Shown: positions 25,483-41,874 of the stretch, in pieces
How the letters are laid out: the number at the start of each line of letters is the position of its first letter
Position numbering within the stretch: position 1 is the stretch's first letter
Source of the DNA: Myxococcus eversor
Lineage (GTDB): Bacteria; Myxococcota; Myxococcia; Myxococcales; Myxococcaceae
Direction of reading: 5' to 3'
NCBI RefSeq assembly: GCF_010894455.1
Contig: NZ_JAAIXY010000003.1
Coordinates: forward strand, 248,001 to 312,000
Length of the DNA: 64,000 nucleotides
Notes under the pieces: generated by a model
Database searches by the model: none
What the model was told of the DNA's origin: nothing
Seen by the model: only the letters and a program-made list of their open reading frames with translations
Translations under genes and position numbers: made by a program

Positions 25483-27771
25483 ATGTCTTTCGTCCGCGCC
25501 GCCGGGGCACTCGTCGTCCTGGCCTTCTTGAGCGCCTGTCCGGGGAGCAATCACGAGGACCCCGGCGGGGGGCCCAAGTTCCCCACCACCGAGCTGGCCG
25601 ACACCACGGTGGGCGCCACGTACGAGGCGCGCCTGACGGCCACCGGAGGGACGGCGCCCCTGAACTACACGCTGGAGACGGAGCCGCCCCCGGGCTTCTC
25701 CTTCTATTCGGCCGACGCGAAGCTCACCGGCCCCGCGAGCGCCTCCGGTGAGTTCTCCCTCCGGGTGAGCGTGCGGGATGTGGAGAAGAGCCAGGATTCG
25801 CACACGTACAGCTTGAAGGTGTGGCCGGCGCCGCTGCTCTCCAACACCGCGCCGCTCGCCGCGTTCACCGGCAACGGCTACACGCACACCTTCGGCGTGA
25901 CGGGCGGGCGGCTGCCGCTGAAGTTCTCCGTGGTGGAGGGCTCGCTGCCCTCGGGCCTGTCGCTGACGCAGGACGGAGAGGTGACGGGCGTGGCGGAGCT
26001 GACGGGCACGCAGACCTTCACCCTGCGGGTGGAGGACGCCAGCGGCGTGAGGGTGGAGGGCCGCTTCTCCGTGGAGGTGAAGCCGAGCACGGTCATCCCG
26101 GACGGAGGACCTCCGACGAGCTTCCCCCTGTCGGTGGGCAACTGGAACATCGAGTGGTTCGGCTCGCCCACGGAGGACCCGGCGGACGACGCGCTCCAGT
26201 TGGCCAACGTGCGGACCGTGCTCAGCGACGCGGGCGTGGACGTGTGGGGCCTGGGGGAGATGGTCAACACGGCGCAGTTCGAAACGCTGAAGACCCAGTT
26301 GCCCGGCTACTCGGGGTTCCTGGCCAATGACCCCGTGGTGACGTTCGGCTCCGACTCCTACTCGTTCAACGAGCAGAAGGTGGGCCTGCTCTACAGGACG
26401 GGGCTGGTGGAGGTGCGCCAGGCTCAAATCGTCCTGGGCGAGTACGACTACGACTTCGCCGGCCGGCCGCCGTTGCGCGTGGACCTGCGCGTGAGCCGGG
26501 GCGGCTCCAGCGTGGACCTGACCATGCTGGTGCTGCACATGAAGGCCAGCGCCACCGCGGATGACTACGCGCGGCGGCTCGCGGCGGGCCAGCATCTCAA
26601 GGGGTACCTGGACGTCAACCTGCCCACGCAGCGGGTGATGGTGGTGGGTGACTGGAACGACGACGTGGACGAGTCCACCACCACGAACCCCGGCACGGGG
26701 GGACAGAAGTTCGACACGCCCTACCGCAACTTCGTGAACGACACGGAGCGCTACACCTTCGTCACCCAGGCCATGTCGCTGCAGGGCGTCGCCTCCACGG
26801 TGAGCTTCAGGACGTTCATCGACCACCAGCTCGTCAGCAACGAGATGCTGGCGAACTACGTCTCCAACTCGGCGGCCGTGATTCGGCCGACCCTCCCCAG
26901 CTACGGCTCCACCACGTCGGACCACTACCCCATCATCAGCCGCTACAACTTCGGTCAGGTGGTGGCGCGCGGCCTGAAGCTCACCGCGCCCAACGGCGGC
27001 GAGTCGTTCGGCGCGGGCGACACGGTCGGCATCACCTGGACGTCGGCCGGGGTGAGCACGGTGCGGTTGCAGTACTCCCTGGATGACGGGCTCACGTGGA
27101 CTGACATCGCCGCGTCCGTGCCCGCGACGCCCGCCACGTACACCTGGACGGTGCCCTCGGTGGAGTCCGCCACGGCGCGGGTGCGCATCAGCGACGCACA
27201 GGACGCCACCTTCACCGATGGGAGCGACGGCGTGTTCGTCGTGAACCGGCCGGTGCCCACGCTGTTCATCAACGAGTACCTGCCCCACCCGAACAACGTC
27301 TCGGGGACCGAAACGGTGGACTTCGACAAAATGTTCGTGGAGGTCCGAAACACCGGCACCACCGCCGTGAACCTGGGCGGCTACTCCATCCACGACGAGG
27401 AGTCGCGGCGGGGCGACAAGCCCGCGCGCCACGTCTTCCCGGGGGGCACGATGCTCCAACCGGGCAAGGTCTACACCGTCTACTCCGGCGCGTCGGCGGT
27501 GCCCTCGGGCGTGCCCAACGTCGCCTACGCCAATGGCGGCGATGGACTGCGCTTCAACCGGGGCAAAAACACCGGCAGCTCCGGCGACACCGCCTTCCTC
27601 CTGCGTCCGGACGGCTCCGAGCAGGACAAGAGCAGGTACGACGACGCCACCCAGGGCATCTCCCACAACCGCAGCCCGGACGGCTCAGCCGCGGGGAGCT
27701 GGGTGCCGCACAACACGCTGTCCTCCTCGGGCGCGTCTCCCGGCACCCGCGTGAACGGCTCGGCGTTCTGA
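25483..27771 (+). CDS. Surface lipoprotein nuclease: Ig-like repeats, endonuclease/exonuclease/phosphatase domain, lamin-tail domain
   Basis: A 762-residue lipoprotein with lipobox LSAC (Cys17). Residues about 30-205 hold two putative Ig-like cadherin-type repeats (TGGTAPLNYTLETEPPPGF, and TGGRLPLKFSVVEGSLPSGL). Residues about 215-490 are an endonuclease/exonuclease/phosphatase fold: GNWNIEWF supplies the metal-binding Asn/Glu layer, then LVLHMKASA, the conserved VVGDWNDDVDES (Asp and Asn), and the late STTSDHYPIIS with catalytic Asp-His. A Ig/fibronectin-like insert follows, then a lamin-tail (LTD) domain near the C-terminus (LFINEYLPHP...). LTD domains are common on secreted nucleases of predatory bacteria. 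It probably degrades extracellular DNA or phosphoesters. It is divergent from the grpE-dnaK operon. Confidence 0.85.
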   Translation: MSFVRAAGALVVLAFLSACPGSNHEDPGGGPKFPTTELADTTVGATYEARLTATGGTAPLNYTLETEPPPGFSFYSADAKLTGPASASGEFSLRVSVRDVEKSQDSHTYSLKVWPAPLLSNTAPLAAFTGNGYTHTFGVTGGRLPLKFSVVEGSLPSGLSLTQDGEVTGVAELTGTQTFTLRVEDASGVRVEGRFSVEVKPSTVIPDGGPPTSFPLSVGNWNIEWFGSPTEDPADDALQLANVRTVLSDAGVDVWGLGEMVNTAQFETLKTQLPGYSGFLANDPVVTFGSDSYSFNEQKVGLLYRTGLVEVRQAQIVLGEYDYDFAGRPPLRVDLRVSRGGSSVDLTMLVLHMKASATADDYARRLAAGQHLKGYLDVNLPTQRVMVVGDWNDDVDESTTTNPGTGGQKFDTPYRNFVNDTERYTFVTQAMSLQGVASTVSFRTFIDHQLVSNEMLANYVSNSAAVIRPTLPSYGSTTSDHYPIISRYNFGQVVARGLKLTAPNGGESFGAGDTVGITWTSAGVSTVRLQYSLDDGLTWTDIAASVPATPATYTWTVPSVESATARVRISDAQDATFTDGSDGVFVVNRPVPTLFINEYLPHPNNVSGTETVDFDKMFVEVRNTGTTAVNLGGYSIHDEESRRGDKPARHVFPGGTMLQPGKVYTVYSGASAVPSGVPNVAYANGGDGLRFNRGKNTGSSGDTAFLLRPDGSEQDKSRYDDATQGISHNRSPDGSAAGSWVPHNTLSSSGASPGTRVNGSAF

Positions 27772-28256: not shown

Positions 28257-28308
28257 AAATAGTTCGGGCCCATAAAAGCGCGTCCCGACAACTATTTCCG
28301 GGACGCGC
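28257..28308 (+). promoter_or_regulatory. Two interleaved inverted repeats upstream of the sigma-factor operon
   Basis: Arms A (AAATAGTT, 28257-28264) and A' (AACTATTT, 28290-28297) are perfect, as are B (GCGCGTCCCG, 28278-28287) and B' (CGGGACGCGC, 28299-28308). The order A-B-A'-B' means they can form a pseudoknot or two competing hairpins. B-B' alone is a terminator-like stem ending the upstream unit. The region lies 129 nt before the sigma gene. Confidence 0.5.
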
Positions 28309-28436
28309 CGCAAGGAATTCGGCGCCTCTTCGTTGAGGTGCACAACCCATTTCGCGCGCAGGCTCCGTATCCCTTTCAAGGGTGACGGCTGGCCGGGCAT
28401 CGGGCCCGAGCCGGTTCGCGTGGGGTCGGAGAGACC

Positions 28437-29132
28437 GTGCTGCCAGGCAATGACCGTTCCGTCCTGGAGTCCTTCCGCCGTGGGGACTCGTCCGTCCTCA
28501 CGCAGGTGTACCGCGTCTATTCGCCGGAGGTGCTGCGCTACCTCTCGCGGCGCTTCTCCGTGGGCGCGGACGGAGGGGCCACGCGCACCGTGTCCCTGTC
28601 CGCGCTGGATTTGGACGCGGCCCATCAGGAGACCTTCGTGCGCGCGTTTCGTCCCAACATGCGGCAGGCCTATGACGGCGTGAGGCCGTACCTGGGATTC
28701 CTGCTGACGGTGGCGCGCTCCACGGCCATCGACCTGATGCGCGCGTCGGGACGGGTGTCGCGGGAAGCCGTGTCGCTGGACGAAGCACCGGAGCTGAGCC
28801 AGTTGCCCAACGAGGGGCGCAGCCCGGAGGAAGAGGCGCTCGGCACCGAGGTCCGGACGCTGGTGCGCCGCTTCCTGGAGACGCAGTCCGAGGAAGGTCG
28901 TGCCCTGGCGCAGCTCCGGTTCGTGGACGGGCTGTCCCAGGAAGCCGCCGCCGAAAAGCTCCGACTCACCCGAGGCGAGGTTCGCGTGCGCGAGCGACGA
29001 CTGCGCACGCAGTTCACCGAACACCTGAAGTCCTCGGGCTGGCTGGACACGGCGGCCGAGCCTGGGCGCATGGAGCTGGGCGTCATCCTGGCCACCCTGG
29101 CCCTGTGCGCAATAGGGAGCATCCCATCATGA
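28437..29132 (+). CDS. ECF-type RNA polymerase sigma factor with hydrophobic C-terminal tail
   Basis: A 231-residue sigma-70 family factor. Region 2 is seen as LTQVYRVYSPEVLRYLSRRF and AHQETFVRAFRP, with YLGFLLTVARSTAIDLMR carrying the DNA-melting/-10 recognition helix. Region 4 is LRFVDGLSQEAAAEKLRLTRGEVRVRERRLRTQF, a helix-turn-helix for the -35 element. The start is GTG, with GGAGA 3 nt upstream. The last about 20 residues are hydrophobic (MELGVILATLALCAIGS), which is not usual for a sigma factor and could tether it to the membrane. The stop overlaps the next ATG (ATGA), so it is coupled to its probable regulator. Confidence 0.85.
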   Translation: MLPGNDRSVLESFRRGDSSVLTQVYRVYSPEVLRYLSRRFSVGADGGATRTVSLSALDLDAAHQETFVRAFRPNMRQAYDGVRPYLGFLLTVARSTAIDLMRASGRVSREAVSLDEAPELSQLPNEGRSPEEEALGTEVRTLVRRFLETQSEEGRALAQLRFVDGLSQEAAAEKLRLTRGEVRVRERRLRTQFTEHLKSSGWLDTAAEPGRMELGVILATLALCAIGSIPS

Positions 29133-29875
29133 GGTGGTACGAGCGACACATCGACGCCAGCCTGCCGCGCTGGGCCCAGGGAGAGCTGCCCGCGCCCCAG
29201 GCCGCCCGCCTGCTGCGCCACGCCCATGTCTGTCACCGGTGCGGCCCGCTCTATGAACGCTGGGCCCAGGCCCATCGCGCCCTGGAGGACTCGCTGGACG
29301 CGCCCTCCTCCATGGAGCGGCTCGCGCTGACGGAAGGTGGATTGGAAGCGGCGCTCGCGGCGGCGGAGCCCCTGTCCGTGCCCTCGCGGTGGCCGTCGAT
29401 GGTGGCGCTCGCGGGCGCGCTGACCGCGGTCGTCGCCGCCATGGTGCTGACGCCCGCCCTGACGGACGAGTTCCGTGCCCGGGGCCTGGGCACCCCACCC
29501 CCTGGCGTGGCGCTGCGCATCTTCTGCGCCACCCCGGGCCAGCCGCTGCGGGAGCTGCACTCGGGTGAAGCCTGCCCGGCTGGCGCCATGCTGGCCTTCG
29601 CCGCGGGCGGACAGGCGCCGTACACGCATATCGCCGTCCAGGTGAGAGGCACGCGGCGCGCGGAGCTCACCGCCGGTCCCTTCGTGCTGTCCGGTGCGCC
29701 AGGCAAGGAAGCGCCCCTGGAGTTGACGGTGCCGCTTCCGGAGACGGTGGGTGAGGCGGAGGTGACCGCGGCGTTCGCCGACAGCCCGTCCGCGGCCCTG
29801 GCGGCCTTGCGTGGGGAGGAGACGGGGGGGGCAGTGGTGCTCAAGCAGGCGCTGAGGGTAGAGGAAGGACCATGA
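29129..29875 (+). CDS. Anti-sigma-like membrane protein with zinc-finger-type N-terminus
   Basis: A 248-residue protein. The N-terminus contains AHVCHRCGPLYERWAQA, an H-x-x-C/C-x-x-C-like pattern as in zf-HC2 anti-sigma domains (ZAS), which bind and hold ECF sigma factors. A single transmembrane segment (VALAGALTAVVAAMVLTPAL) sits near residue 95. The remaining 130 residues are outside the membrane: FCATPGQPLRELHSGEACPAG and a beta-rich sensor-like part. Topology and position directly after the sigma gene, with ATGA overlap and GGGAG site, support an anti-sigma role. A textbook zf-HC2 has more conserved spacing, so the match is partial. It overlaps the next gene by ATGA. Confidence 0.75.
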   Translation: MRWYERHIDASLPRWAQGELPAPQAARLLRHAHVCHRCGPLYERWAQAHRALEDSLDAPSSMERLALTEGGLEAALAAAEPLSVPSRWPSMVALAGALTAVVAAMVLTPALTDEFRARGLGTPPPGVALRIFCATPGQPLRELHSGEACPAGAMLAFAAGGQAPYTHIAVQVRGTRRAELTAGPFVLSGAPGKEAPLELTVPLPETVGEAEVTAAFADSPSAALAALRGEETGGAVVLKQALRVEEGP

Positions 29876-31602
29876 ACAAACTGGGAGTGCTCCTCGGGGC
29901 CGCCGCGCTTTTCGCCGCTCGCGACGCCTCGGCGGAAGCCCTGGTCCGCCGAGCGCTCGTGATTGCCCACAACGGCAGCGACGACCCGTCGTTGCCCGCG
30001 CTGCGTTTCGCGGACGATGACGGCGTGCTGTGGGCGGAGACCCTCCAGCGGTTGGGCGTGGAGACGACGCTGCTGGTGGACCCGGATGCCGCCACGCTCG
30101 CGGGCGCGCGGCCGGTGCTCGCGGGCGCGCGCCCTCCCACGCCCGACGAGGTGAAGCGCGAGGTGGCCCGCCTGCGCGCCGCCAGCCTGGCCGACGACGA
30201 AGCCGGCCGCGAGACGGACGTGCTCGTGGTGTACGTGGGCCACGGCAACACGGATGAAGCCGGCCGCGCCTACTTCACCCTGGCCGGAGGCCGGCTGGAC
30301 AAGGCGAGCCTCTACGCCGACGTGGTGGACCCGCTGGGCGCCGACTACGTGCACCTCATCGTCGACGCCTGCCGCGCCTCCGGCGTCGTGGGGAGCCGGG
30401 GCGGACAGACGGACACGGCGGTGCTGGCGGAGCTGCGCGGCATGCTCGCGCGCGAGCAACTGGCCACCCGGCCCACCGTGGGCGCTCTCTTCGCGGAGAG
30501 CGAGGACGGGGAGACGCACGAGTGGTCCCGCATCCGCGCGGGCGTCTTCAGCCACGTGGCGCGCTCGGGGCTCCTGGGCGCCGCGGACATCAACGGCGAC
30601 GGACAGGTGGAGTACAGCGAGCTGGGCGCGTTCGTCTCCGCGTCGCTGCAGGGCGTGAAGGGCCTGCCCGCGCGGCTGAGCATCCACGCCTTCGCGCCCA
30701 CCGGCGCGCCCCGCCGTCCCCTCGTCGGACAGGCCCCCAGCGGCCCCAGCCTCGCGCTGTCCACCGGCTTCGGGCACTCGCGCCTCTCCGTGGAGGACGC
30801 GGACGGGCGGCGCCTGGCGGACGTGCGGCGCTCCGAGGACCAGTACGTGATGCTGCGGCTGCCGGAGCGCGAGGTGTACTGGCTGCGCACGCCCACCAGC
30901 GAGGCCCGCGTCACGCTGGCGGAGCTGTCCCAGGACGTGCTGCCGGAGCTCAAGCCGCGCGAGCTGCAGGAGCGCGGTCCCGCCGAGGAAGCCCTGCGTC
31001 GCGGCCTGTTCGCCATGCCGCTCGACAAGGACTTCTATGACCAGTACGTGGCGGCCGCGGGGCTGGTGCCGGTGGATTTCTCCCGCGCGTTTCCTCCGGC
31101 CGCGGGCGGCGACTTCGTGTCCCGGCGGTTCGCGATATCCAGCCCCTCCCCCTGGCCGTCGTGGGAGGTGGGCCTCCTGGGTCACCAGGCCCCGCTGGGG
31201 CTGGGCTCGTTCTCCACCGGCCCGAGCCTCTCCTGGCGCAGCGACACCTGGCCTCACCTGTACTACGGCGCGCGCGCCTCCTACTCGCTGATGCCGGTGG
31301 CGTTCGAGGGCATCCGCACCCACCGCGCCACGGTGCAGGGGCTCTTGGGCCTGCGGGATGGGGTGCGCACGCCGCTGTTCCTGGAGGCGGGGCTCGGCTG
31401 GGGCGTGCTGGGCGTGACGTCGAAGGCCAGGCGCATGGGAGATCCGACGCTGCTGACGACGCACGCGGCGGCGGGCGTGGCGGGGCGGCTCTTCGGACTG
31501 AAGCTGAGACTGGCGGCCACGGTCGCCGCGGACCGCGTCACGCTGGACGGTGACGACCAGTGGGACCGGATGTTCGGCATCGAGCTGGGGCTGAGGCGCT
31601 GA
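29872..31602 (+). CDS. Secreted caspase-family protease with an EF-hand
   Basis: A 576-residue protein with a signal peptide (cleavage near ASA-EA, residue 22). The caspase-like domain follows (about 24-280): His124 in VVYVGHGNT and Cys167 in LIVDACRAS form the dyad. Inside the second part of this domain is a canonical EF-hand loop, DINGDGQVEYSE, at residues 239-250, with all calcium ligands (D1, N3, D5, E9, E12). The C-terminal half, from about residue 350, is beta-rich (VLGHQAPLGLGSF..., YYGARASYSLMPVAFEGI...) and resembles outer-membrane barrel strands. It is therefore probably periplasmic or outer-membrane and calcium-responsive. The ATG overlaps the anti-sigma-like stop. Peptidase specificity is unknown; secreted caspase-fold proteins are uncommon. 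Confidence 0.85.
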   Translation: MNKLGVLLGAAALFAARDASAEALVRRALVIAHNGSDDPSLPALRFADDDGVLWAETLQRLGVETTLLVDPDAATLAGARPVLAGARPPTPDEVKREVARLRAASLADDEAGRETDVLVVYVGHGNTDEAGRAYFTLAGGRLDKASLYADVVDPLGADYVHLIVDACRASGVVGSRGGQTDTAVLAELRGMLAREQLATRPTVGALFAESEDGETHEWSRIRAGVFSHVARSGLLGAADINGDGQVEYSELGAFVSASLQGVKGLPARLSIHAFAPTGAPRRPLVGQAPSGPSLALSTGFGHSRLSVEDADGRRLADVRRSEDQYVMLRLPEREVYWLRTPTSEARVTLAELSQDVLPELKPRELQERGPAEEALRRGLFAMPLDKDFYDQYVAAAGLVPVDFSRAFPPAAGGDFVSRRFAISSPSPWPSWEVGLLGHQAPLGLGSFSTGPSLSWRSDTWPHLYYGARASYSLMPVAFEGIRTHRATVQGLLGLRDGVRTPLFLEAGLGWGVLGVTSKARRMGDPTLLTTHAAAGVAGRLFGLKLRLAATVAADRVTLDGDDQWDRMFGIELGLRR

Positions 31603-31633
31603 CGGCGTCCGGACCAGGGGAAGAGCGCTCGTG

Positions 31634-33550
31634 ATGCGATGTCTCTGGATGACGCTGCTGGTGCTGGCCTCGGGCTGTGACGCCATCGACCTGGAGCTAT
31701 TCCAGCACAAGCCCCTGTCCCGCTTCGAGGCAGAGCCCCCCGGTGACATCTGTGAGCACGGTGGACGTCGCGTGCTCACGGGCCTGGACACGAACAGCGA
31801 CGGCGTCCTGGACGACACCGAGGTCCGCACCACCGACTACGACTGCAACCGGGCGCTGCCCGAGGTGCTGGTCGTCACGCGGACGCTCCTCCCGGGAACC
31901 ACGTGCCCGCTGGGCGGAGAGCTCGTCGAGGCGGGCCTGGACGTGAATGGCGACGGGGAGCTGGAGGCGGAGGAGGTCTCCCAGAGCGCCATCACCTGTC
32001 GGGAGTCCTCGACGGTGGTGTACCGGGTGAGTGACGTGGACTCGTATCCCCTGGCCTGTGACGAGGGGACCTCCCTCGTGGAGGCGGGGCCCGACCTGGA
32101 TGCCGACGGAGCGCTCGACGACTCGGAGCGCCGCGCACAGACCGCCGTCTGCGCGCCCGCGTCGACCGTCCGCGTGCGCCTGCAAATCGAGCCCCCCGGG
32201 GCCCGCTGCGCCTCCGGCGGCACGCGCCTCAACGTGGGCACCGACGCGAACGGCAACGGGACGCTCGAGGACTCCGAGGTGGCCACGCGCACCTACGTGT
32301 GCCTCTCGACGAACACGTTCACCGGCGACTACTTCCTGCGCGACGCGGTGGACCTGGAGGTGCTGCGCGCGTTCTCCCGAATCGAGGGCACGCTGAACAT
32401 CCAGGACACCGCGCTGCCTGAAATCGTCCTGCCCTCGCTCGTCGCGGTGGAGGGCCCGCTGTTCGTGGGGGGCAACACGGCCCTGACGCGCCTGGAGCTG
32501 GAAGGGCTGAGCTTCGTGGGCGGCGGCGTCAGCCTCTACACAAATCCAGAGCTGGTGACGCTGACGCTCGGAGGCCCGACGGAGCAGGACATCCTGTGGG
32601 TGGAGGGGGACTTCGAACTGCAGCAGAACCCCAAGCTCGCGAGTCTGGACGGAATGAAATCCGTGCAGCCCCGGGGCAACCTGTCCTTGTTCGACAACGA
32701 CTCGCTCACGGACCCGGGCTCGTGGCACCTGACGCAGCTGCCCGGCTCGCTCGACGTCATCGGCAACGAGCAGCTGACCCGGCTGCCCTTCCGGGCCCTG
32801 CTGCGCGTGGGAGGCTCCATCGCCATCAACGAGAACCCCGCGCTCGTGGGGCTGGAGTTGACTCGCCTGGAGACGGTGGGCAACACCGTCACCATCCACC
32901 GGAACGGCTCGCTGACCGACCTGACGGGCCTGCCCGTGCTCCGGACGATTCAAGAGGGTCTGTACGTGACGGACAACGACTCCCTGGTCTCCACGGCGGG
33001 GCTGGGCGAACTCACCACCGTGAGCTGGCTGCACGTCGCCGACAACGACGTCCTGGCGGCCTGCGACTTCCCTCGGCTGATGACCATCCCTGGCCGATTT
33101 GACCTGATGCGCAACAAGGCGCTGGCGCGCCTGGGGAGGTTCCCGTCCCTGGTCTACCTGCCGCGACTGACGCTCGCGCAGAACGACTCGCTGAACGACC
33201 CGTCGGGGTTGGACCGTCTCTCCAGCATGGAAGAACTCGAGGTGACGGGGAACGCGTCGCTCAGGAACATGGACGGGCTCAACCACCTCAGGACGCTGGC
33301 GAAGCTCAAGGTGGACTCCAATCCCGCGCTCGAGCGGCTCTCATTGGACGGCCTCCAGCGAGTGAACGAGACGCTGGAAATCATCGGGAACCCGGCGCTG
33401 CCCACCTGCATGGCCAACCTCTTCGCGAACCGGGTGTTCAACGGGATAACGAGAACCATCGAGGGCAACGACGACACTCCCACCTGCGCGCCCCCTCCCG
33501 ATGGGCTGACAGGATTGGACGCGTCGCCCGTTGAAGGACGCCTTCGATGA
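31634..33550 (+). CDS. Lipoprotein with D-x-N-x-D-G modules and L-domain/LRR-like repeats, paralogue 1
   Basis: A 638-residue lipoprotein (lipobox ASGC). Residues about 25-230 hold four modules of the form EPPG..C..GG..V..G.D.N.DG.LDD.EV, e.g. VLTGLDTNSDGVLDDTEV, GLDVNGDGELEAEEV, GPDLDADGALDDSE and GTDANGNGTLEDSE. Each resembles a calcium-binding loop. The second half is a series of about 10-12 short repeats (ISRIEGTLNIQDTALPEIVL, SLVAVEGPLFVGGNTALTRL) like receptor L-domain or LRR solenoids. The ATG at 31634 follows the GTG at 31631; either could serve. It starts 31 nt after the caspase gene. No enzymatic motif; a ligand-binding surface role is inferred. Confidence 0.8.
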   Translation: MRCLWMTLLVLASGCDAIDLELFQHKPLSRFEAEPPGDICEHGGRRVLTGLDTNSDGVLDDTEVRTTDYDCNRALPEVLVVTRTLLPGTTCPLGGELVEAGLDVNGDGELEAEEVSQSAITCRESSTVVYRVSDVDSYPLACDEGTSLVEAGPDLDADGALDDSERRAQTAVCAPASTVRVRLQIEPPGARCASGGTRLNVGTDANGNGTLEDSEVATRTYVCLSTNTFTGDYFLRDAVDLEVLRAFSRIEGTLNIQDTALPEIVLPSLVAVEGPLFVGGNTALTRLELEGLSFVGGGVSLYTNPELVTLTLGGPTEQDILWVEGDFELQQNPKLASLDGMKSVQPRGNLSLFDNDSLTDPGSWHLTQLPGSLDVIGNEQLTRLPFRALLRVGGSIAINENPALVGLELTRLETVGNTVTIHRNGSLTDLTGLPVLRTIQEGLYVTDNDSLVSTAGLGELTTVSWLHVADNDVLAACDFPRLMTIPGRFDLMRNKALARLGRFPSLVYLPRLTLAQNDSLNDPSGLDRLSSMEELEVTGNASLRNMDGLNHLRTLAKLKVDSNPALERLSLDGLQRVNETLEIIGNPALPTCMANLFANRVFNGITRTIEGNDDTPTCAPPPDGLTGLDASPVEGRLR

Positions 33551-35448
33551 GAGTGTTCTGGCTGCTGGCCCTGCTGCCCTGGGTCACGGGCTGTGAAGCG
33601 CTCCGCTTGAGAGAGCTGCTGAAGCAGTTCCCCCCGCTCTCGCGCACCGTCGTGGAGCCTCCGGGTGAGCGCTGTCCCCTGGGAGGACAGGTGGTGTTCG
33701 TGGGCATGGACACCAACACGAACGACGCGCTCGACGACGACGAGGTGACGAGCACCCAGGTCCACTGCTCCACCCTGCCCGAGCTGGTGGTCATCATGGA
33801 GCCGGTGCCCTTCGGGACACGCTGCCCGGGAGGCGGGCAAGTCACCCGCGCCGGTCGAGACACGGACGGCAACGGCGTCCTGGACGCGGAGGAGACTGAC
33901 CGCGAGGTGTACTCCTGCTGGAAGGTCACCGACGCGCCCATCCTCTCGCGCGTGCGCGTCCCCTCGCCGTCCCTCGTCGCCTGTCCCGAGCCCACCACGC
34001 ACATCCTCGTCGACGCGGGACCCGACGAGAACGGCGACAAGAACCTCGACGATGACGAGGTGAGGCTTACCCTCAGCACCTGCGCCCAGGAGCCGCTGCT
34101 GCGGGTGGAGCTGGACTGGGAGCCTCCCGGTGCCCGCTGCGCGGTGGGAGGTACTCGCGTCCTCGCGGGCATGGACCAGAACGCCGACAGGCAACTGGAC
34201 GCCCTGGAGGTCCTCATCTCCAACGTCCTCTGCGAGGACGGGCGCACCTTCGATGGCGACTTCCTGGTCCAGCGCGACACGGACCTCGCCGTGCTCCAGG
34301 GCATCAGCCGCATCCGAGGCAACCTCCTCTTCTTCAACGGAAGTCCGACCCTGGCGCAGGCGAAGCTGCCCTCGCTGGAGGTCGTCGACGGCGCCGTTGT
34401 CATCGAGAGCAATCCCTTCCTCACGCGGATGGAGGCGCCCGGGTTGCGCTTCGTCGGCGAGGGGCTGACGATTCGAGGCAACGATGCGCTGGAGACGCTG
34501 ACCGTCGGCGGAGGCGGAGCCGGATGGCTGTGGGTGTCCCGGGACCTGACCGTCGAAAACAACGCCCGGCTGAAGAGCCTGGACGGACTGCGGTCCGTCG
34601 TTCCTCGCCGCAATGTCCAGGTGAAGGGGAACGCCGCCCTCACCCATCCGCTCAATGGCCTGGGACTCCAGTCCATCGAGTTCCTTGAAGGGTCGCTGAG
34701 CATCTCCTCCAATGGCGCGCTGGAGAGGCTGCCCCTGGCCACCCTGGCGCGAGTGAACGAAGACGTGGTCATCGAGGACAACGCCAGCCTGGCGACACTC
34801 GTGGGGACGCGGCTGGAGTCCATTGGCGGAGGCCTGCTGGTACAGGGCAACCCCATGCTGCTGAACCTCGCGGGCCTGTCGTCACTCCAGGTCGTCTCCG
34901 GCAAGCTGCAGGTGAGGGAGAACGCGGGGATGGTCACCTCCTACGGCCTGTCCTCTCTCTGGCATGCCGGGAGCATCTTCTTCGCTCGCAACAACGCGAT
35001 GACGGTGTGGGGAGGAATGACCACCCTCCGGAGCGTGGAGACGGGCATCTCGGTGGACGCCAACGCGAAGCTGGAGACCATCGGCTCCATGACCTCACTC
35101 GTGAACGGGCCGTGGCTCGCGCTCTACGGCAATCCCAGGCTGACCGCGCTGCATGGGCTGGGGAACCTGGAGCAACTGCGAGGCTTCTCGGTCAACGACT
35201 GCGACTCGCTCACCACGCTGAACGAGCTGACGAAGCTGCGCACCATCGACACGCTGATGGTGGAGGACAACGCCCACCTGACCCAACTGGGCTTGGACCC
35301 GGTGCGACAGGTGTCCGGCTATCTGGCCGCCCGGAACAACCCGCGGCTTCCCACCTGCCAGATTCAGGCGTTCGCCGGACGGGTCTACACGGGCCGCCCG
35401 GACCTGCTCTTCGTGGAAGGCAACGACGACCAGGCTCCCTGTCCATGA
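33547..35448 (+). CDS. Lipoprotein with D-x-N-x-D-G modules and L-domain/LRR-like repeats, paralogue 2
   Basis: A 633-residue paralogue with the same order: lipobox VTGC, then EPPGERCPLGGQVVFVGMDT and three further modules (GRDTDGNGVLDAEE, GPDENGDKNLDDDE, GMDQNADRQLDALE), then the L-domain-like solenoid from about residue 245. Its start overlaps the stop of paralogue 1 by ATGA, so translation is coupled. The solenoid starts ISRIRGNLLFFNGSPTLAQ, closely like ISRIEGTLNIQ of paralogue 1, which shows duplication. The final module is a Cys-containing end (NNPRLPTCQ), also shared by the others. Confidence 0.8.
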   Translation: MRVFWLLALLPWVTGCEALRLRELLKQFPPLSRTVVEPPGERCPLGGQVVFVGMDTNTNDALDDDEVTSTQVHCSTLPELVVIMEPVPFGTRCPGGGQVTRAGRDTDGNGVLDAEETDREVYSCWKVTDAPILSRVRVPSPSLVACPEPTTHILVDAGPDENGDKNLDDDEVRLTLSTCAQEPLLRVELDWEPPGARCAVGGTRVLAGMDQNADRQLDALEVLISNVLCEDGRTFDGDFLVQRDTDLAVLQGISRIRGNLLFFNGSPTLAQAKLPSLEVVDGAVVIESNPFLTRMEAPGLRFVGEGLTIRGNDALETLTVGGGGAGWLWVSRDLTVENNARLKSLDGLRSVVPRRNVQVKGNAALTHPLNGLGLQSIEFLEGSLSISSNGALERLPLATLARVNEDVVIEDNASLATLVGTRLESIGGGLLVQGNPMLLNLAGLSSLQVVSGKLQVRENAGMVTSYGLSSLWHAGSIFFARNNAMTVWGGMTTLRSVETGISVDANAKLETIGSMTSLVNGPWLALYGNPRLTALHGLGNLEQLRGFSVNDCDSLTTLNELTKLRTIDTLMVEDNAHLTQLGLDPVRQVSGYLAARNNPRLPTCQIQAFAGRVYTGRPDLLFVEGNDDQAPCP

Positions 35449-35501
35449 GTCCGCGCGACGGGAGCAGCATGCGCGATGAGAAGCGACGAGGAGCACCTTC
35501 G

Positions 35502-37547
35502 ATGCGATGGACCTGGGCCGTACCGCTGCTCCTGCTCGGAGGCTGTGATGCGATTCGCATCGACGACTTCCTCGCGCCTCACGCGACGCTCACCCGCAAG
35601 GAGCCGGAGCCGCCCGGCGAGCACTGTGAGCATGGAGGTGAGGCGCTGCTCGCGGGGCCGGATGCGAATGACGACGGGCTCCTGTCCGACGACGAGGCGG
35701 CCAGCATCCAGTACTTCTGCGACAAGCGCCCCCCGCGCGTCGCGCAGCGCACGCGGGAGGAGCCGGTGGGCACGCGGTGCGAGCACGGCGGGCACGCGGT
35801 GGAGACGGGCATCGACTCGGATTGGGATGGCGTGCTCGACGACGCCGAGGTGACGGCCACCGAGTACGTCTGCGCCACGACCTTCCCCGGCGTGCTGGTG
35901 CGCACCAGGGCCGTGCTTCCGGGCGCGGCGTGTCCACTGGGCGGACAACTGACGCACGCGGGCAACGACACGAACCAGGACGGCATCCTGTCCGACGACG
36001 AAATCACCCGCGAGGTCTACGGTTGCCTGGAGCCCGAGACGGTGCTCACGCGAGTGGTGTTGCTCGGGACGCGAGGAGGCAGTGAGTGCGGCTCCACGGA
36101 CATCCATGCCGTGGAGTCGGGACCTGACCTGGACCGGGACGGCACCCTCGACGACGACGAGCTTCGCGCCGCGAGCCACATCTGCAACCCGCGGGTGCCC
36201 ATCCTGACACGCCAGCATGCGGAGGCGCCCGGTGTGAACTGCCCCGCTGGCGGCATGGCCGTGGCCTACGGCGGAGACGAGGACAAGAACGGGGTGCTGG
36301 AGGAGCTGGAGGTCCTGGCCCGGCATTACGTGTGTCGGTCCGCCGCCACCCATGACGGCCCCTACGAACTGCTCGACGCCACGGACGTCGCCGCGCTCCA
36401 GAACATCTCCCACATCCGGGGAGGTCTCATCATCTCCTCGCAGGTGGCCACGGAGGTGGTGCTTCCCGGGCTGGAGTTCGTGGAGGGCTCCGTGGACATC
36501 CACGACAACCCGCTGCTCGTGCGCGTGGCCATCCCCGGGCTTCGCTTCGTCCGGGATGACCTGCTCATCGCCCGCAACCCTCAACTGACCTCGTTGACGT
36601 TCGGCCCCGCCGCCTTCCCTCCGAGTCGCGAGGTCCCGGTGGGCCGGACCCTGAAGGTGGAGCGGAACGCCCAGTTGTTCTCCCTGGCCGGGACGAGCGC
36701 CCTCGCCCCTCGGCAGGGCCTTGAAATCACGGACAACGCCCTCCTCGACAGCGCGGGGAGCTTCACCTTCGTCCAGAGCATCACGGGCACGGTGCTCATC
36801 TCGGGCAATCCGGCGCTGAGAGACCTTCCACTGCCGCAGGTCACCTTCGTCGGGTCACTCTCCGTCGTCGACAACCCCTCGCTCCAGACGCTGGCCGGGC
36901 TGCGCAAGCTGCGGACCGCGCAAGCCAACGTCTCCCTCGTCCGCAACGAGGCGCTGGAGGACTCCGCCCTGCTGGAGAACCTGCAGACCGTCGGCAGCGA
37001 CTTCGAGGTGTCGGGAAACCCTCAGCTCAAGCGCCTGGAGCTGCCCAACCTCTCCCGGGTGGGGGGCTTCACCATCGAGGGCAACAGCAACCTGTCGGTC
37101 GTCGGCCCCATGCGGTCCTTGAGGGACGTGGGTTCGCACCTCCGCATCATCGGAAACGCGAGGCTGTTTCAAGTCACGGAGCTGAGCGCCCTGCAGAGCA
37201 TCCGCGGTGAGCTGGCCATCGCCAACAACCGCTCCCTGGTGGACCTGTCGGGCCTGGAGCGACTGACCGTCGTCAGCTACGTCTACGCGGATGGGAACAC
37301 GAACCTGCCGACCCTGGCGGGGCTGAAGGGGCTGCGCGAGGTGGACGGCTTGACGGTCCGGGACAATCCAAGCCTCACGGAGCTTCGGCTCGACTCGCTG
37401 GCCCAGGTCCGCGTCGGCTTCATGGTCACCGGCAACACGTGGCTTCCCTCGTGTCGGGCCAGGCGGCTCGCGGAGGCCGTCCACACGGGCGCCCTCGACG
37501 AGCGCGTCATCGAAAACAACGACGAAGCGGCCGCGTGCCCGCCGTAG
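35502..37547 (+). CDS. Lipoprotein with D-x-N-x-D-G modules and L-domain/LRR-like repeats, paralogue 3
   Basis: A 681-residue third paralogue: lipobox LGGC, five modules (e.g. GPDANDDGLLSDDE, GIDSDWDGVLDDAE, GNDTNQDGILSDDE), then the solenoid starting ISHIRGGLIISSQVATEVV. The start is uncertain: an ATG at 35445 would overlap the previous stop by ATGA, one at 35469 has GGAGC close by, and 35502 has GAGGAG with 8-nt spacing and gives the shortest signal peptide, like its paralogues (MRWTWAVPLLLLGGC). I use 35502. It ends the run of co-directional genes begun by the sigma factor. Function is inferred only from architecture. Confidence 0.8.
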   Translation: MRWTWAVPLLLLGGCDAIRIDDFLAPHATLTRKEPEPPGEHCEHGGEALLAGPDANDDGLLSDDEAASIQYFCDKRPPRVAQRTREEPVGTRCEHGGHAVETGIDSDWDGVLDDAEVTATEYVCATTFPGVLVRTRAVLPGAACPLGGQLTHAGNDTNQDGILSDDEITREVYGCLEPETVLTRVVLLGTRGGSECGSTDIHAVESGPDLDRDGTLDDDELRAASHICNPRVPILTRQHAEAPGVNCPAGGMAVAYGGDEDKNGVLEELEVLARHYVCRSAATHDGPYELLDATDVAALQNISHIRGGLIISSQVATEVVLPGLEFVEGSVDIHDNPLLVRVAIPGLRFVRDDLLIARNPQLTSLTFGPAAFPPSREVPVGRTLKVERNAQLFSLAGTSALAPRQGLEITDNALLDSAGSFTFVQSITGTVLISGNPALRDLPLPQVTFVGSLSVVDNPSLQTLAGLRKLRTAQANVSLVRNEALEDSALLENLQTVGSDFEVSGNPQLKRLELPNLSRVGGFTIEGNSNLSVVGPMRSLRDVGSHLRIIGNARLFQVTELSALQSIRGELAIANNRSLVDLSGLERLTVVSYVYADGNTNLPTLAGLKGLREVDGLTVRDNPSLTELRLDSLAQVRVGFMVTGNTWLPSCRARRLAEAVHTGALDERVIENNDEAAACPP

Positions 37548-37664: not shown

Positions 37665-39326
37665 ATGGCCAAGCCCGTCATCCTCGCGGTGGACGACGAC
37701 ACGGAAGTGCTGCGCGCGGTGGAGCGCGACTTGCGGCGTCAGTACGGCCGCGAGTACCGCGTGCTGAGCGCGGACCGCGGTGAGTCCGCGCTGGAGACGG
37801 TGCGGCAACTGCGGCTGCGCGGAGACCCGATAGCGCTCTTCCTCGTCGACCAGCGCATGCCGGGCATGTCCGGCGTGGAGTTCCTGGAGCAGGCCAAGAC
37901 GCTCTACGACGAGGCCCGGCGCGTGCTGCTCACCGCCTACGCCGACACGCAGGCCGCCATCCACGCCATCAACGAGGTGCGGCTGGACCACTACCTGCTC
38001 AAGCCGTGGGAGCCTCCCGAGGAGCGCCTCTATCCGGTGCTGACGGACCTGCTGGAGGAGTGGTGGGCCCACCACCCGCCGACCTTCGAGGGCATCCGCG
38101 TGCTGGGCAACCGCTGGGCCCCCCGCTCCCACGCGCTGCGGGACTTCCTGGGCAGCAACCAGGTGCCCTACCAGTGGCTCGACGTGGAGGGCAGCGACGA
38201 GGGCCGGCTCCTGCTCGCCCAGGCCGGCGGCGCGGCCGTGGAGAAGCTGCCCCTGGTCCTCTTCCCGGATGGCACGCGGCTGATGGGCCCGTCCACGCTG
38301 GAGGTGGCCGAGCGCATCGGCCTGAAGGTCCGCGCCACCAAGCCCTTCTACGATTTGGTCATCATCGGCGGAGGCCCCGCGGGGCTCGCCGCCGCCGTGT
38401 ACGGCGCTTCCGAGGGACTGAGCACCGTCATGGTGGAGCGCAGCGCGCCGGGCGGACAGGCGGGCACCAGCTCGCGCATCGAAAACTACCTGGGCTTCCC
38501 CGCGGGCCTGAGCGGCGCGGACCTGGCGCGGCGCGCGGTGACACAGGCGGCGCGCTTCGGCGTCGAAATCCTCACGCCCCAGGAGGTGAGCGGCCTGCGC
38601 GTGGAGGACCCATACCGCATCGTCACCCTGGCGGACGGGACGGAGCTGAGCTGTCACGCGCTGCTGCTCGCCATGGGTGTGCAGTGGAAGAAGCTGGAGA
38701 CGCCCGGCATGGAGGCGCTCACCGGCGCGGGCGTCTACTACGGCTCGTCGCGCACGGAGGCGGTGTCCTGCAAGGAAGAGGACGTCTTCATCATCGGCGG
38801 CGCCAACTCGGCGGGACAGGCCGCGCTCTACTTCGCGCAGTTCGCCCGCCAGGTGACGCTGGTGGTGCGCGGTGACTCGCTGGACAGGGGCATGTCCCAC
38901 TACCTCGTCGAGCAGGTGCGCTCCCTGCCCAACGTCACCGTGCTGCTCGACACCGAGGTGACGCGCGTGGAGGGCGGCACCCACCTGGAGCGCGTCACCC
39001 TGACGACGCGGGGACAGCCCGAGCGCACCGTGCCCGCCAGCACGCTGTTCGTGATGATTGGCGCCGTGCCCCGGACGGAGTGGCTGGACGGACTGGTGGC
39101 CCGGGACACTCGAGGCTACGTCCTCACCGGACCGGACCTGATGCCCGGAGGCCAGCGCCCCAAGGGCTGGAAGCCGGACCGTCCGCCGTTCCTCCTGGAG
39201 ACGAGCGTGCCGGGCATCTTCGCCGCGGGCGACGTGCGCCATGCCTCCATCAAGCGCGTGGCGTCCGGCGTGGGCGAGGGCTCCATCGCCATCTCCTTCA
39301 TCCACCAATACCTGAGTGAGGTGTGA
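37665..39326 (+). CDS. Response regulator fused to thioredoxin-reductase-like flavoprotein
   Basis: A 553-residue fusion. Residues 1-130 are a CheY-type receiver: Asp10-12, phospho-Asp62 in FLVDQRMPG and Lys in HYLLKPW. Residues 140-225 form a thioredoxin-like or linker section (VLGNRWAPRSHALRDFLGSNQ). From 229 on is a TrxB-like FAD/NADPH oxidoreductase: LVIIGGGPAGLAAAVYG, second Rossmann motif VFIIGGANSAGQAALYF, C-terminal FAD motif GIFAAGDVRHASIKRVA. The redox CxxC of TrxB is absent: the site reads AVSCKEED, with one Cys. So it probably is not a classical thioredoxin reductase. The three kinases that follow could phosphorylate its receiver. Such fusions are known in other bacteria beside cNMP-binding kinases; their function is unclear. 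Confidence 0.85.
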   Translation: MAKPVILAVDDDTEVLRAVERDLRRQYGREYRVLSADRGESALETVRQLRLRGDPIALFLVDQRMPGMSGVEFLEQAKTLYDEARRVLLTAYADTQAAIHAINEVRLDHYLLKPWEPPEERLYPVLTDLLEEWWAHHPPTFEGIRVLGNRWAPRSHALRDFLGSNQVPYQWLDVEGSDEGRLLLAQAGGAAVEKLPLVLFPDGTRLMGPSTLEVAERIGLKVRATKPFYDLVIIGGGPAGLAAAVYGASEGLSTVMVERSAPGGQAGTSSRIENYLGFPAGLSGADLARRAVTQAARFGVEILTPQEVSGLRVEDPYRIVTLADGTELSCHALLLAMGVQWKKLETPGMEALTGAGVYYGSSRTEAVSCKEEDVFIIGGANSAGQAALYFAQFARQVTLVVRGDSLDRGMSHYLVEQVRSLPNVTVLLDTEVTRVEGGTHLERVTLTTRGQPERTVPASTLFVMIGAVPRTEWLDGLVARDTRGYVLTGPDLMPGGQRPKGWKPDRPPFLLETSVPGIFAAGDVRHASIKRVASGVGEGSIAISFIHQYLSEV

Positions 39327-39327
39327 C

Positions 39328-40365
39328 GTGTCCGCGGACGTGATGGAGCCTCAGGAACGGCTGAGATGCCTGGAAGGCACGCTGCTGCGCCAGGAGAAGC
39401 TGGCCGCGCTCGGGCGCCATGCGGCGGGACTCGCGCACGAGATGAACAACCCCGCCTCCGCGGGCCGCCGCGCCACCGAGCAGCTCACCCTGGCCATGGA
39501 CGCACAGGAGGATTTGTCGCTGGCGCTGGAGCGCTGGAAGCTGACGGAGGCCCAGCGCCTGCTGCTGCTGCGCACCTGCCGACAGAGCCAGGGCCGGGGC
39601 GCCACCCGGGACATGGACCCGCTGACGCGCGGTGACGCGGAGGACGCGCTGGCGACGTGGATGGACGCGCGCGGCGTGGTGAACGCGTGGGATTTGGCCC
39701 CCACGCTGCTGGACGCGGCCATCGACCAGGAGAAGCTGGAGGCGATTGCCCAGGCGCTCCCCGCCGACGCGCTGCCGGACTCGCTCGCGTGGCTGGAGGC
39801 GCTGGTGCGCACGCGGGCGCTGCTCGCGGAGGTGAAGCAGAGCACCACGCGCCTGTCGGAGCTGGCCGGCGCCGTGAAGTCCTACACCCACGCGGGCAAG
39901 GAGCAGCCCGAGCCCGTGGACGTGCACGAGGGCCTGGAGAACACGCTGCTCCTGCTCAACTACAAGCTGAAGCACGGCGTCGAGGTGAAGCGCGAGTACG
40001 ACCGCGAGCTGCCGCGCGTCCAGGCCCTGCCCGGCATGCTGAACCACGTGTGGACCAACCTCGTCGACAACGCCATCGACGCCATGGGCGGCAAGGGGCA
40101 CCTCACCGTGCGCACCGCGAAGGACGGCGGCTTCCTGCTCGTGGAGGTGGTGGACGACGGGCCCGGCGTCCCGCCCGATTTGCTGCCGCGCATCTGGGAG
40201 CCCTTCTTCACCACCAAGCCCATGGGGCATGGCACCGGACTCGGCCTGGACATCACCCGCCGCATCGTCGTGGACCGGCACCACGGCGACGTGCGCGTGG
40301 AGTCGAAGCCCGGGCGCACGTCCTTCCAGGTGAGGCTGCCGCTGGAGCAGCCACCGTCCGCGTAG
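39328..40365 (+). CDS. Sensor histidine kinase A (short, soluble)
   Basis: A 345-residue soluble kinase without an input domain. The H-box is AAGLAHEMNNPAS with phospho-acceptor His37. A conserved middle region follows (DAEDALATWMDARGVVNAWD, about 105-125), and the HATPase domain has the N-box VDNAIDAMGG, the G1 box VVDDGPGVPP, and GTGLGLDITRRIV. The GTG at 39328, behind GTGAGG, fits best; an upstream GTG at 39316 overlaps the previous gene and an ATG at 39343 has no site. The stop of the flavoprotein gene lies just upstream, so both are probably one transcript, with the receiver as natural partner. It converges on kinase B with a 3-nt gap. Confidence 0.88.
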   Translation: MSADVMEPQERLRCLEGTLLRQEKLAALGRHAAGLAHEMNNPASAGRRATEQLTLAMDAQEDLSLALERWKLTEAQRLLLLRTCRQSQGRGATRDMDPLTRGDAEDALATWMDARGVVNAWDLAPTLLDAAIDQEKLEAIAQALPADALPDSLAWLEALVRTRALLAEVKQSTTRLSELAGAVKSYTHAGKEQPEPVDVHEGLENTLLLLNYKLKHGVEVKREYDRELPRVQALPGMLNHVWTNLVDNAIDAMGGKGHLTVRTAKDGGFLLVEVVDDGPGVPPDLLPRIWEPFFTTKPMGHGTGLGLDITRRIVVDRHHGDVRVESKPGRTSFQVRLPLEQPPSA

Positions 40366-40368
40366 AGG

Positions 40369-41874
40369 CTACGCGCCGCGCAGCGCCTCCAGCTCCGTGG
40401 GCCGTCGTGGCGTGGACTCGGACGCGCGTGGACGCGCGGGCTCGGGGATGAAGGCCCCGTCGAGCTCAAGGGGCAGGCGGACCCGGAAGCGCGTCTCGCC
40501 CGGCCGCGAGGTGACGACCACTTCGCCCCGGTGCAACGTGGACACGACGCGGTGGGTGACGCTCAGCCCCAGGCCGGTGCCCTCGCCCACGCCTTTCGTG
40601 GTGAAGAACGGGTCGAAGACGCGGGGCAGGATTTCCTCGGGGATGCCGGGCCCGTCGTCCACCACCTCCACCACCACGTGGTCCCCATCGCCGCGCGTGC
40701 GCAAGAGCAGCGTCCCTCCGCCGTTCTGCTTGATGGCATCTGCCGCGTTCTCGATGAGGCTGGTCCACACCTGGTTCAACTCCGTGCCGTACGCGGTGAT
40801 GGTCGGCAGGCTCCGGTCGTAGTCCCGCTCCACCCGTACCCCGCGCAGCCGGTGGCCCAGCACGGCCAGGGTGCTCTCCAGCCCCTCGTGCACGTCTACG
40901 CGTTGCAGCGGCGCTTCATCCAGGTACGTGTACGCCCGGGCCGCGTTCACCAGCGCGGCGATGCGTCCCCCCGCCTGCCCCACCTCGTCGAGCAGCACCG
41001 CGATTCCCCGCGTCGCGGCCACCCAGCGCAGCGTGCCCTTCAACACGTCGCCCTGGAGCGACTCCAGCTCGTGCTCCAGTCGCTCCAGCGACAGCCCCGC
41101 CTCCACCAGCTCCGGTGCCAGCACCCACGCGTCTTCCACGCCGCGCGCGCCCAGCCACCGCGCCAGCGCGTCCTCCGCGTCGCCCCGGTCCAGGGGACTG
41201 CGGGAGACGGGCTCCAACGAGGCGCGAGACTCCAGCGCCCGCACCTGGGGCTCGGACAGCGTGCGACAGTCCAGGGAGAGCGCCAGCGAGGGCAGCTCAC
41301 CCAACCGCTCCCCCAGCTCGCGCACGCCGCGCATCACCGCCGACGCGGGGTTGTTCAGCTCATGGGCCAGCCCCGCCGCCAGCGTGCCGAGCGACGCCAG
41401 CTTCTCCTGCTGGAGCGAGATGGACTGGAGCGTCTTCATGCGCTCGCCCATCGTCCGGAGAATCTCCCGGTTCGCCGTGGGGCAATCCGCGAGCATCCGC
41501 CAGAAGGCCTGGTGGCTGAGCCGCACCAGCCGACACTCGGAGATGGCGCGGCTGCTGGCGAGGAAGCGCTGGCCGAGCAGCAGCGGCACCTCTCCGAAGA
41601 ACTCTCCAGCCCGGAACACGGAGACGAGCATCTCCACGCCGCCCATCGTCCGGGTGATGCGCAGCTCTCCCTTCAGGATGAGGAAGAAGGCGGCGGCCTC
41701 TCCCTCGTGGGCCAGCCAGTCCTGGGGCTGGAGCTCCAGGTACGAGGCCTCGGCGCGCAGCCGCTCGGCCTCCTCGGGGTCCACGTCGGTGAAGAGGGAG
41801 ACGGTGCGCAGCTCCGCCAGGAAGAGGGCCGCCGGGTCCTCCATGCGCGGAGGGGGAGCGGCGTGCGAGTCCAT
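40369..41874 (-). CDS. Sensor histidine kinase B with cNMP-binding domain
   Basis: A 501-residue kinase. The N-terminus is a cyclic-nucleotide-binding (CRP-like) domain: RTVSLFTDVDPEEAERLRAE, then FRAGEFFGEVPLLLG, with FLASSRAISECRLVRLS, as in CRP domains. The H-box is GLAHELNNPAS with His171. The shared middle block DAEDALARWLGARGVEDAWV and the HATPase motifs (ENAADAIKQNGGG, VDDGPGIPEEI, GTGLGLSVTHRVV) follow. The GEFFGE signature is right for cAMP-type binding, but the Arg needed for phosphate contact is not clearly placed. The ATG at 41874 follows AAGGAG. It faces kinase A and is divergent from kinase C across a 283-bp gap. Confidence 0.88.
   Translation of the reverse strand: MDSHAAPPPRMEDPAALFLAELRTVSLFTDVDPEEAERLRAEASYLELQPQDWLAHEGEAAAFFLILKGELRITRTMGGVEMLVSVFRAGEFFGEVPLLLGQRFLASSRAISECRLVRLSHQAFWRMLADCPTANREILRTMGERMKTLQSISLQQEKLASLGTLAAGLAHELNNPASAVMRGVRELGERLGELPSLALSLDCRTLSEPQVRALESRASLEPVSRSPLDRGDAEDALARWLGARGVEDAWVLAPELVEAGLSLERLEHELESLQGDVLKGTLRWVAATRGIAVLLDEVGQAGGRIAALVNAARAYTYLDEAPLQRVDVHEGLESTLAVLGHRLRGVRVERDYDRSLPTITAYGTELNQVWTSLIENAADAIKQNGGGTLLLRTRGDGDHVVVEVVDDGPGIPEEILPRVFDPFFTTKGVGEGTGLGLSVTHRVVSTLHRGEVVVTSRPGETRFRVRLPLELDGAFIPEPARPRASESTPRRPTELEALRGA

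Follow-up and report, generated by a model that had tools for sequence, protein, structure and literature searches.

Six successive plus-strand genes in a 64,000-nucleotide stretch of Myxococcus eversor DNA (contig NZ_JAAIXY010000003.1, positions 248,001 to 312,000; hereafter the window) encode an extracytoplasmic function (ECF) sigma factor (SIG), a zinc-binding anti-sigma (ZAS) factor (ANT), a secreted caspase-fold protease (CAS) and three lipoproteins (LP1 to LP3). We propose that CAS is probably a site-1 protease that cuts ANT and so frees SIG, since a site in ANT just outside the inner membrane resembles the caspase's own predicted processing site. The gene set, its linkage, the topology of its products and the conservation of the site rest on sequence or prediction. 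The genes are as follows.

28437–29132, plus strand: SIG, ECF sigma factor of 231 residues, GTG start, hydrophobic C-terminal tail (TIGR02937)
29129–29875, plus strand: ANT, ZAS anti-sigma factor of 248 residues (zinc motif, AlphaFold2 (AF2) model, ATGA overlap with SIG)
29872–31602, plus strand: CAS, secreted caspase-fold protease of 576 residues (AF2, fold comparison)
31634–33550, plus strand: LP1, lipoprotein (LASG↓CDAI), four DUF7151 repeats and a half resembling receptor L-domains or leucine-rich repeats (LRR)
33547–35448, plus strand: LP2, lipoprotein (VTG↓CEAL), four DUF7151 repeats and an L-domain half
35502–37547, plus strand: LP3, lipoprotein (LGG↓CDAI), five DUF7151 repeats and an L-domain half

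All six were confirmed as open reading frames in the order given by a first-pass annotation, as were the ATGA overlaps that it had noted between sigma and anti-sigma, anti-sigma and caspase, and the first two lipoprotein genes. The start of LP3 is corrected here to the ATG at 35502, the longer open frame from 35007 being accidental; for LP1, GTG 31631 and ATG 31634 are both possible starts. A search within the operon for sigma-70 promoters and plus-strand terminators returned none.

The anti-sigma linker site and the caspase loop

The features of ANT and CAS that bear on the proposal are these.

29219–29242, plus strand: ZAS motif H31-x3-C35-x2-C38 of ANT, predicted to bind zinc (alignment A2)
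29396–29449, plus strand: predicted transmembrane helix of ANT, residues 90–107 (AF2)
29468–29491, plus strand: predicted caspase cleavage site in ANT, E114-F-R-A-R118↓G119-L-G121, cut after R118 (29480–29482)
30241–30243, plus strand: catalytic His124 of CAS, invariant in 121/121 aligned caspases
30370–30372, plus strand: catalytic Cys167 of CAS, invariant in 121/121 aligned caspases
30397–30402, plus strand: R176-G177 in the p20/p10 loop of CAS, where self-processing is predicted (121-caspase alignment)
30586–30621, plus strand: EF-hand loop of CAS, D239-I-N-G-D243-G-Q-V-E-Y-S-E250 (alignment, profile)
31159–31596, plus strand: predicted eight-stranded outer-membrane beta-barrel of CAS, residues 430–575 (AF2, Foldseek)

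ANT matches the zf-HC2 profile only below its cut-off, yet it has the N-terminal H-x3-C-x2-C motif of ZAS factors and its gene adjoins a sigma gene; H31, C35 and C38, together with the pair Cys133 and Cys149, are invariant in alignment A2. The zinc motif is followed by one predicted transmembrane helix and an immunoglobulin (Ig)-like periplasmic domain (AF2 beta-sandwich, residues 127–245), which most resembles generic Ig-like sandwiches (Z about 8) and was assigned to no named family. Between helix and domain lies a linker modelled with low confidence (predicted local distance difference test, pLDDT, below 50 over residues 108–122). The best conserved block of this extracytoplasmic linker, E-F-x-x-R118-G119-x-G, stands 11 residues outside the helix, with R118, G119 and G121 invariant in A2. 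Site-1 cleavage usually falls in the linker between transmembrane helix and folded domain.

Across the phylum the linker motif takes roughly the form [FWLV]-x-[ASPTV]-[R/K]-[G/S] (short form [FWLYV]xx[R/K][G/S]), and its position is fairly constant, mostly 7–18 residues from the membrane. It is present in 41 of 45 non-redundant caspase-linked anti-sigma factors (29/33 in the main family and 12/12 with other caspase lineages), compared with 3/23 zf-HC2 membrane proteins that related genomes encode with no caspase alongside (Fisher 1.8e-10). The rate was 5.9/33 in shuffled linkers and 13/58 in stretches further along the same proteins. The four main-family misses retain the Arg, the next residue being K, M, I or T. 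At held-out loci, under a rule that also permitted V, M and I at P4 (numbered from P1, the residue before the predicted cut), the motif was found in 23/28 proteins and in 11/11 of those with the zinc motif; the five misses look like wrongly called open reading frames.

CAS scores 20.7 bits against Peptidase_C14, just below the cut-off of 21.4, and its caspase domain aligns with metacaspase 4 and legumain at Z 19 (VIA-align). The AF2 model (pLDDT 81.6) comprises a signal peptide (1–23), the caspase domain (24–260), a beta domain (about 269–348), a linker (408–426) and the barrel (430–575). The last, with eight long strands in the structure prediction, resembles OmpA, OmpX and NspA (Foldseek E about 1e-6 to 1e-5); more distant caspases of the family end before it. 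The caspase fold and His/Cys dyad place CAS in clan CD, with cleavage predicted after basic residues. The caspase dyad and EF-hand described in the first-pass annotation were both upheld, His124, Cys167, D239 and E250 each being invariant in the 121 aligned relatives, as are Asp165, Glu217 and Asp50. The EF-hand loop conforms to D-x-N-x-D-G-x5-E (D239, N241, D243, E250; D243 in 120/121), its profile matches EF-hands of an Entamoeba calcium-binding protein, and calcium binding is predicted; the invariance of the loop suggests calcium sensing.

Position 176 of CAS is R in 109 and K in 12 of the 121 caspases, and position 177 is G in 115. The pair lies nine residues past the catalytic Cys and opens a disordered loop (pLDDT below 50 over residues 178–193), where CAS may process itself, by analogy with metacaspase biology. 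Orthocaspases and Arabidopsis metacaspases cut after R or K at P1 (PMC6426788), and the match of the anti-sigma site to this specificity therefore supports cleavage by the caspase.

The two sites also agree with one another. K-G is found in the anti-sigma linker of all 13 non-redundant lineages with a K-G-loop (K-type) caspase, which are diverged, and Arg at the anti-sigma site in 34/36 cases with an Arg-loop caspase; among the K-type, residues P4–P2 of the anti-sigma site match the partner's loop (permutation p 0.005). This R/K matching is consistent with shared recognition; as statistical evidence it is weak. Several points count against it. The K-type sites were located by seeking K-G first, and a uniform first-hit rule lowers the K class to 11/13, with 31 Arg and 3 Lys in the R class (Fisher 1.4e-6); in the two K-class exceptions K-G stands a few residues further on. 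On the caspase tree the agreement amounts to one deep change, and a Nannocystaceae-like clade has changed separately (K in ANT, R in the caspase loop), so it does not represent many independent events. For the R-type, no covariation was seen between the two sites at P4–P2 (p 0.42). Strict covariation of P1 at both sites was weakened by the Nannocystaceae-like loci and by the tree.

A further K-type lineage with a K-G loop (L280–L289 and L293, for example L282 at C10:387726-388646 of the M. eversor genome) has no zinc-motif anti-sigma gene in its 1.5 kb flanks, and may have a substrate other than an anti-sigma factor.

Conservation of the core and the lipoproteins of the genus

Whole-genome searching recovered the caspase from all the same-genus genomes covered, the nearest named relative with the locus, M. 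qinghaiensis, having a caspase 96% identical to CAS. In the M. eversor genome, as in each of 25 loci of the genus that were retrieved in full, the genes run sigma, anti-sigma, caspase, lipoproteins; the 25 loci have one to four lipoproteins after the caspase. The genes thus form an old conserved operon, of which the lipoproteins are part in this genus, as the first-pass annotation had it. More distant sets consist of sigma, anti-sigma and caspase without lipoproteins, or have the sigma/anti-sigma pair divergent from the caspase.

A caspase-peptide scan of 84,980 species, in which neighbouring genes were not a selection criterion, gave 79 loci, nearly all titled as Myxococcota or as myxobacterial or deltaproteobacterial metagenome-assembled genomes. 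An ECF sigma gene lies within 6 kb of the caspase, mostly within 1.5 kb, in 56/56 loci with at least 4 kb of upstream sequence, and near the caspase in all the shorter loci with at least 1.7 kb. The scan is not permissive, since eight loci of more divergent caspases gave no sigma match. When genomes were drawn evenly from the phylum, a caspase match at E of 1e-20 or below turned up in 84 of 146, and the ANT homologues in 41 genomes adjoin a caspase, except for three weak zinc-finger-only matches that were not assigned. In most related loci, as in the window, the gene after the sigma gene encodes a ZAS anti-sigma factor. The coupling of an ECF/ZAS pair to a secreted caspase with an EF-hand loop therefore holds as first proposed.

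The same cannot be said of a six-gene module. Only in Myxococcus/Pyxidicoccus, and once in Citreicoccus, is the caspase followed by such lipoproteins; their absence from the locus outside these three genera led us to reject the larger module, and the phylum-wide core is ECF sigma factor, ZAS anti-sigma factor and secreted caspase. The question of whether caspases and lipoproteins occur routinely without the sigma/anti-sigma pair receives a divided answer: caspases of the family were never found without a sigma gene where upstream DNA sufficed, but DUF7151 proteins do occur without one, and are frequent elsewhere without a caspase.

The repeated D-x-N-x-D-G modules reported in the three lipoproteins correspond to Pfam DUF7151 (PF23657; four, four and five copies), which scores 126–195 bits against a cut-off of 27.2 and precedes the L-domain/LRR-like half. 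A tree of 71 lipoproteins resolves three old, position-specific lineages, older than the radiation of the genus; one subgroup of four genomes retains only the slot-3 type. For the lipoproteins, the ratio of nonsynonymous to synonymous substitution (dN/dS) is about 0.3–1.1; in the same pairs, the three core genes and the downstream gene give mostly 0.04–0.3. The DUF7151 half has a value of 0.44, and the L-domain half a higher one, 0.75 when pooled and 1.42 in one pair. This pattern would suit ligand recognition under changing selection and is open to alignment error and recombination. The lipoproteins may act as outputs or as genus-specific inputs, whether receptors or CAS regulators. Just one other DUF7151 gene was found in the M. 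eversor genome (L071, contig C30), and it joins its repeats to collagen-like GPQGPQ stretches.

Published sorting patterns for M. xanthus lipoproteins (Lys at +2 for the inner membrane, Ala at +7 for the matrix; PMC3222651) indicate the outer membrane by default. LP1 to LP3, first described as surface lipoproteins, may lie on either face of that membrane. Asp occupies +2 in 55/67 lipoproteins; it was not adopted as an inner-membrane sorting signal because the M. xanthus patterns differ from those of E. coli.

Other observations concern relatives and neighbours of the locus. Two anti-sigma–caspase units (G013:C1:7114599-7116979 and G008:C1:4704310-4706408) have apparently decayed, their caspase frames being interrupted by stops. 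The full Myxococcus-type locus is also present in a record titled Comamonas sp. KCTC 72670 (L122), probably a mislabelled or mixed assembly. In a second caspase set (L061, L062) the sigma gene is preceded by a gene for an RCC1-repeat protein, possibly a different sensor or output. A search for plasmid relatives gave no match for CAS and weak partial matches only for the K-type caspase. The gene 5' of the operon (25255–27771) encodes Ig-like repeats with an endonuclease/exonuclease/phosphatase domain and a lamin-tail domain, and part of it is similar to genes downstream of barrel-less caspases. On the 3' side (37665–43546) lie a response regulator fused to a pyridine-nucleotide-disulphide oxidoreductase, a histidine-kinase ATPase protein and a cyclic nucleotide-binding histidine kinase. 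No CRISPR genes were present among the neighbouring genes examined.

A candidate site-1 protease circuit and its alternatives

SIG scores 60.2 bits against TIGR02937 (cut-off 42.9), is also above the cut-off for Sigma70_ECF, and has sigma regions 2 and 4 only, as ECF factors do. Its end (29060–29132) encodes a hydrophobic C-terminal tail, LGVILATLALCAIGSIPS, which is kept in the genus and takes other letters in the second set; it could make membrane contact, unusual for an ECF sigma factor. The best conserved block 5' of the sigma gene in the genus is a candidate promoter.

28342–28371, plus strand: predicted ECF-type promoter, ACAACCC (28342–28348), 16 bp, CCGTATC (28365–28371) (conservation)

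The block is recognisable in genome G033; the exact motif occurs once in the window and marks this locus in 15/17 same-genus genomes searched, other matches being at about the rate of reversed controls. A wider regulon was sought and rejected, since no second target recurred across 27 genomes. An autoregulated circuit, mostly of a single operon, is the simplest reading. An inverted repeat at about 28277–28310, considered as an operator, is not conserved in relatives (folding z −1.5) and was set aside.

Taken together, the parts could form a self-amplifying envelope-sensing switch. SIG would be held by ANT, which sequence and structure prediction depict as a one-helix ZAS factor with an Ig-like periplasmic domain. 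CAS would be exported and, in this lineage, tethered by its barrel at the outer membrane, its caspase domain lying in the periplasm. Activation of CAS would follow a signal, possibly calcium at the EF-hand loop or a ligand bound by the lipoproteins, and might involve self-cleavage at R176-G177; CAS would then cut ANT after R118, within the linker on the outer face of the inner membrane. What is left of ANT would be broken down in the manner of RseA and RsiW, and freed SIG would transcribe its own operon from the promoter at 28342–28371. The first-pass annotation had the sigma factor raising the whole gene set. Autoregulation through the conserved promoter would indeed close such a loop, but CAS is probably not merely a product of SIG: to judge by the basic site conserved in the linker, the caspase appears to act upstream, on the anti-sigma factor, and the arrow is thus probably to be reversed. 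The main physical difficulty is distance: a CAS anchored by its barrel in the outer membrane must reach a site about 11 residues from the inner membrane, which the linker allows, if with strain.

In a rather unlikely alternative, CAS is only an output or effector induced by SIG, acting in envelope remodelling, developmental lysis or attacks on kin or prey, and the basic site is cut by some other protease of the periplasm. The overlapping genes and predicted autoregulatory promoter would raise CAS after induction, the operon includes fast-evolving lipoproteins in this genus, and a role in developmental cell death of M. xanthus is proposed in the text of a 2012 survey (PMC3501461). A general protease would not, however, explain why the basic site is so much rarer in anti-sigma factors without a caspase neighbour (3/23 against 41/45), and its P1 residue tracks the class of the caspase. 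Resemblance of the site to the caspase's own loop, and the co-encoding of anti-sigma factor and caspase throughout the phylum, would suit an R/K-G element that serves in docking or as a pseudosubstrate, the anti-sigma factor keeping the caspase inactive until an envelope signal removes it and frees both sigma factor and protease. We think this improbable: a pseudosubstrate should avoid a cleavable P1–P1' pair, whereas R or K followed by small G or S looks cleavable.

There is similarly little likelihood that the motif, as a legacy of this anti-sigma family, serves structure or marks the membrane border and has no tie to proteolysis. Its fairly constant distance from the membrane would fit, and the linked anti-sigma factors do share ancestry, which also weighs against our proposal by inflating the motif counts, the control set being drawn from other anti-sigma families. 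Yet P1 stays basic, P4 mostly aromatic and P1' G or S while the flanks vary freely and the periplasmic domains are barely alignable; the motif is also present with very divergent sigma and caspase lineages, and the positive-inside rule would disfavour Arg or Lys on the outer side. The preferred reading remains cleavage of ANT by CAS. A broader version, which we advance tentatively as possible, holds that periplasmic caspases across the phylum are dedicated site-1 proteases of ECF anti-sigma factors, whose site mimics the caspase's own activation loop, and that Myxococcus has placed the switch under three rapidly diversifying receptor-like lipoproteins reporting neighbours, prey or kin.

Relation to known systems

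The pairing of sigma factor and caspase is not itself undescribed. The main text of the 2012 survey (Asplund-Samuelsson et al. 2012, PMC3501461) reports sigma-70 genes in the operons of four of the five metacaspases of M. xanthus DK1622, and the sigma-70/metacaspase operons that it lists for Myxococcus, Anaeromyxobacter, Haliangium and Sorangium are very probably loci of the same kind. In that main text the words anti-sigma and beta-barrel do not occur, and the passage on the operons gives no mechanism, lipoprotein set or conserved site. Where the first-pass annotation knew of no named system, the pairing thus proves to be published; we found no report of the anti-sigma site, the barrel or the lipoproteins. 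The open-access literature on metacaspases, orthocaspases or peptidase C14 with sigma or anti-sigma factors, and on DUF7151, held nothing relevant, most subscription papers falling outside that search.

Like DegS/RseA/sigma-E and RsiW/sigma-W, the predicted circuit has a membrane-spanning anti-sigma factor with a linker site on the outer face beside the helix, where a site-1 cut would free an ECF sigma factor. It differs in its protease, an inner-membrane PDZ serine enzyme in DegS/RseA and here a co-encoded clan CD cysteine protease, predicted to be tethered by a barrel in the outer membrane and to prefer Arg or Lys at P1. In type III-E CRISPR systems the caspase-like Csx29 cuts Csx30, the inhibitor of the ECF-type CASP-sigma (PMC10028731); shared with these are a caspase-fold protease set against the inhibitor of an ECF-type sigma factor and predicted sigma autoregulation. 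Csx29, however, is an intracellular TPR-CHAT protein that is encoded in a Cas7-11 locus and triggered by target RNA, and Csx30 is not a ZAS membrane protein (PMC10028731), whereas CAS is a single caspase domain with a signal peptide. ECF54 sigma genes likewise adjoin protease genes (CHAT, subtilase, carboxypeptidase) but are described as acting without an anti-sigma factor (PMC8999054); here a ZAS anti-sigma factor is present and is the predicted substrate. With metacaspases and orthocaspases (clan CD, C14) CAS shares the fold, the dyad and a basic site in the loop after the catalytic Cys, adding a signal peptide, an EF-hand loop after the p10-like part, a beta domain and the predicted outer-membrane barrel.

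To our knowledge, little has been learnt of what caspase homologues of bacteria cleave in nature, and their roles have often been guessed to lie in cell death. For a caspase family spread over much of a phylum, our analysis names a candidate substrate, a residue (R118 of the anti-sigma factor) and a readout (one promoter). If the proposal is correct, caspase-fold proteases would serve in signalling by releasing ECF sigma factors across the envelope, as a counterpart of DegS/RseA and of Craspase, and myxobacteria would run several such circuits in parallel.

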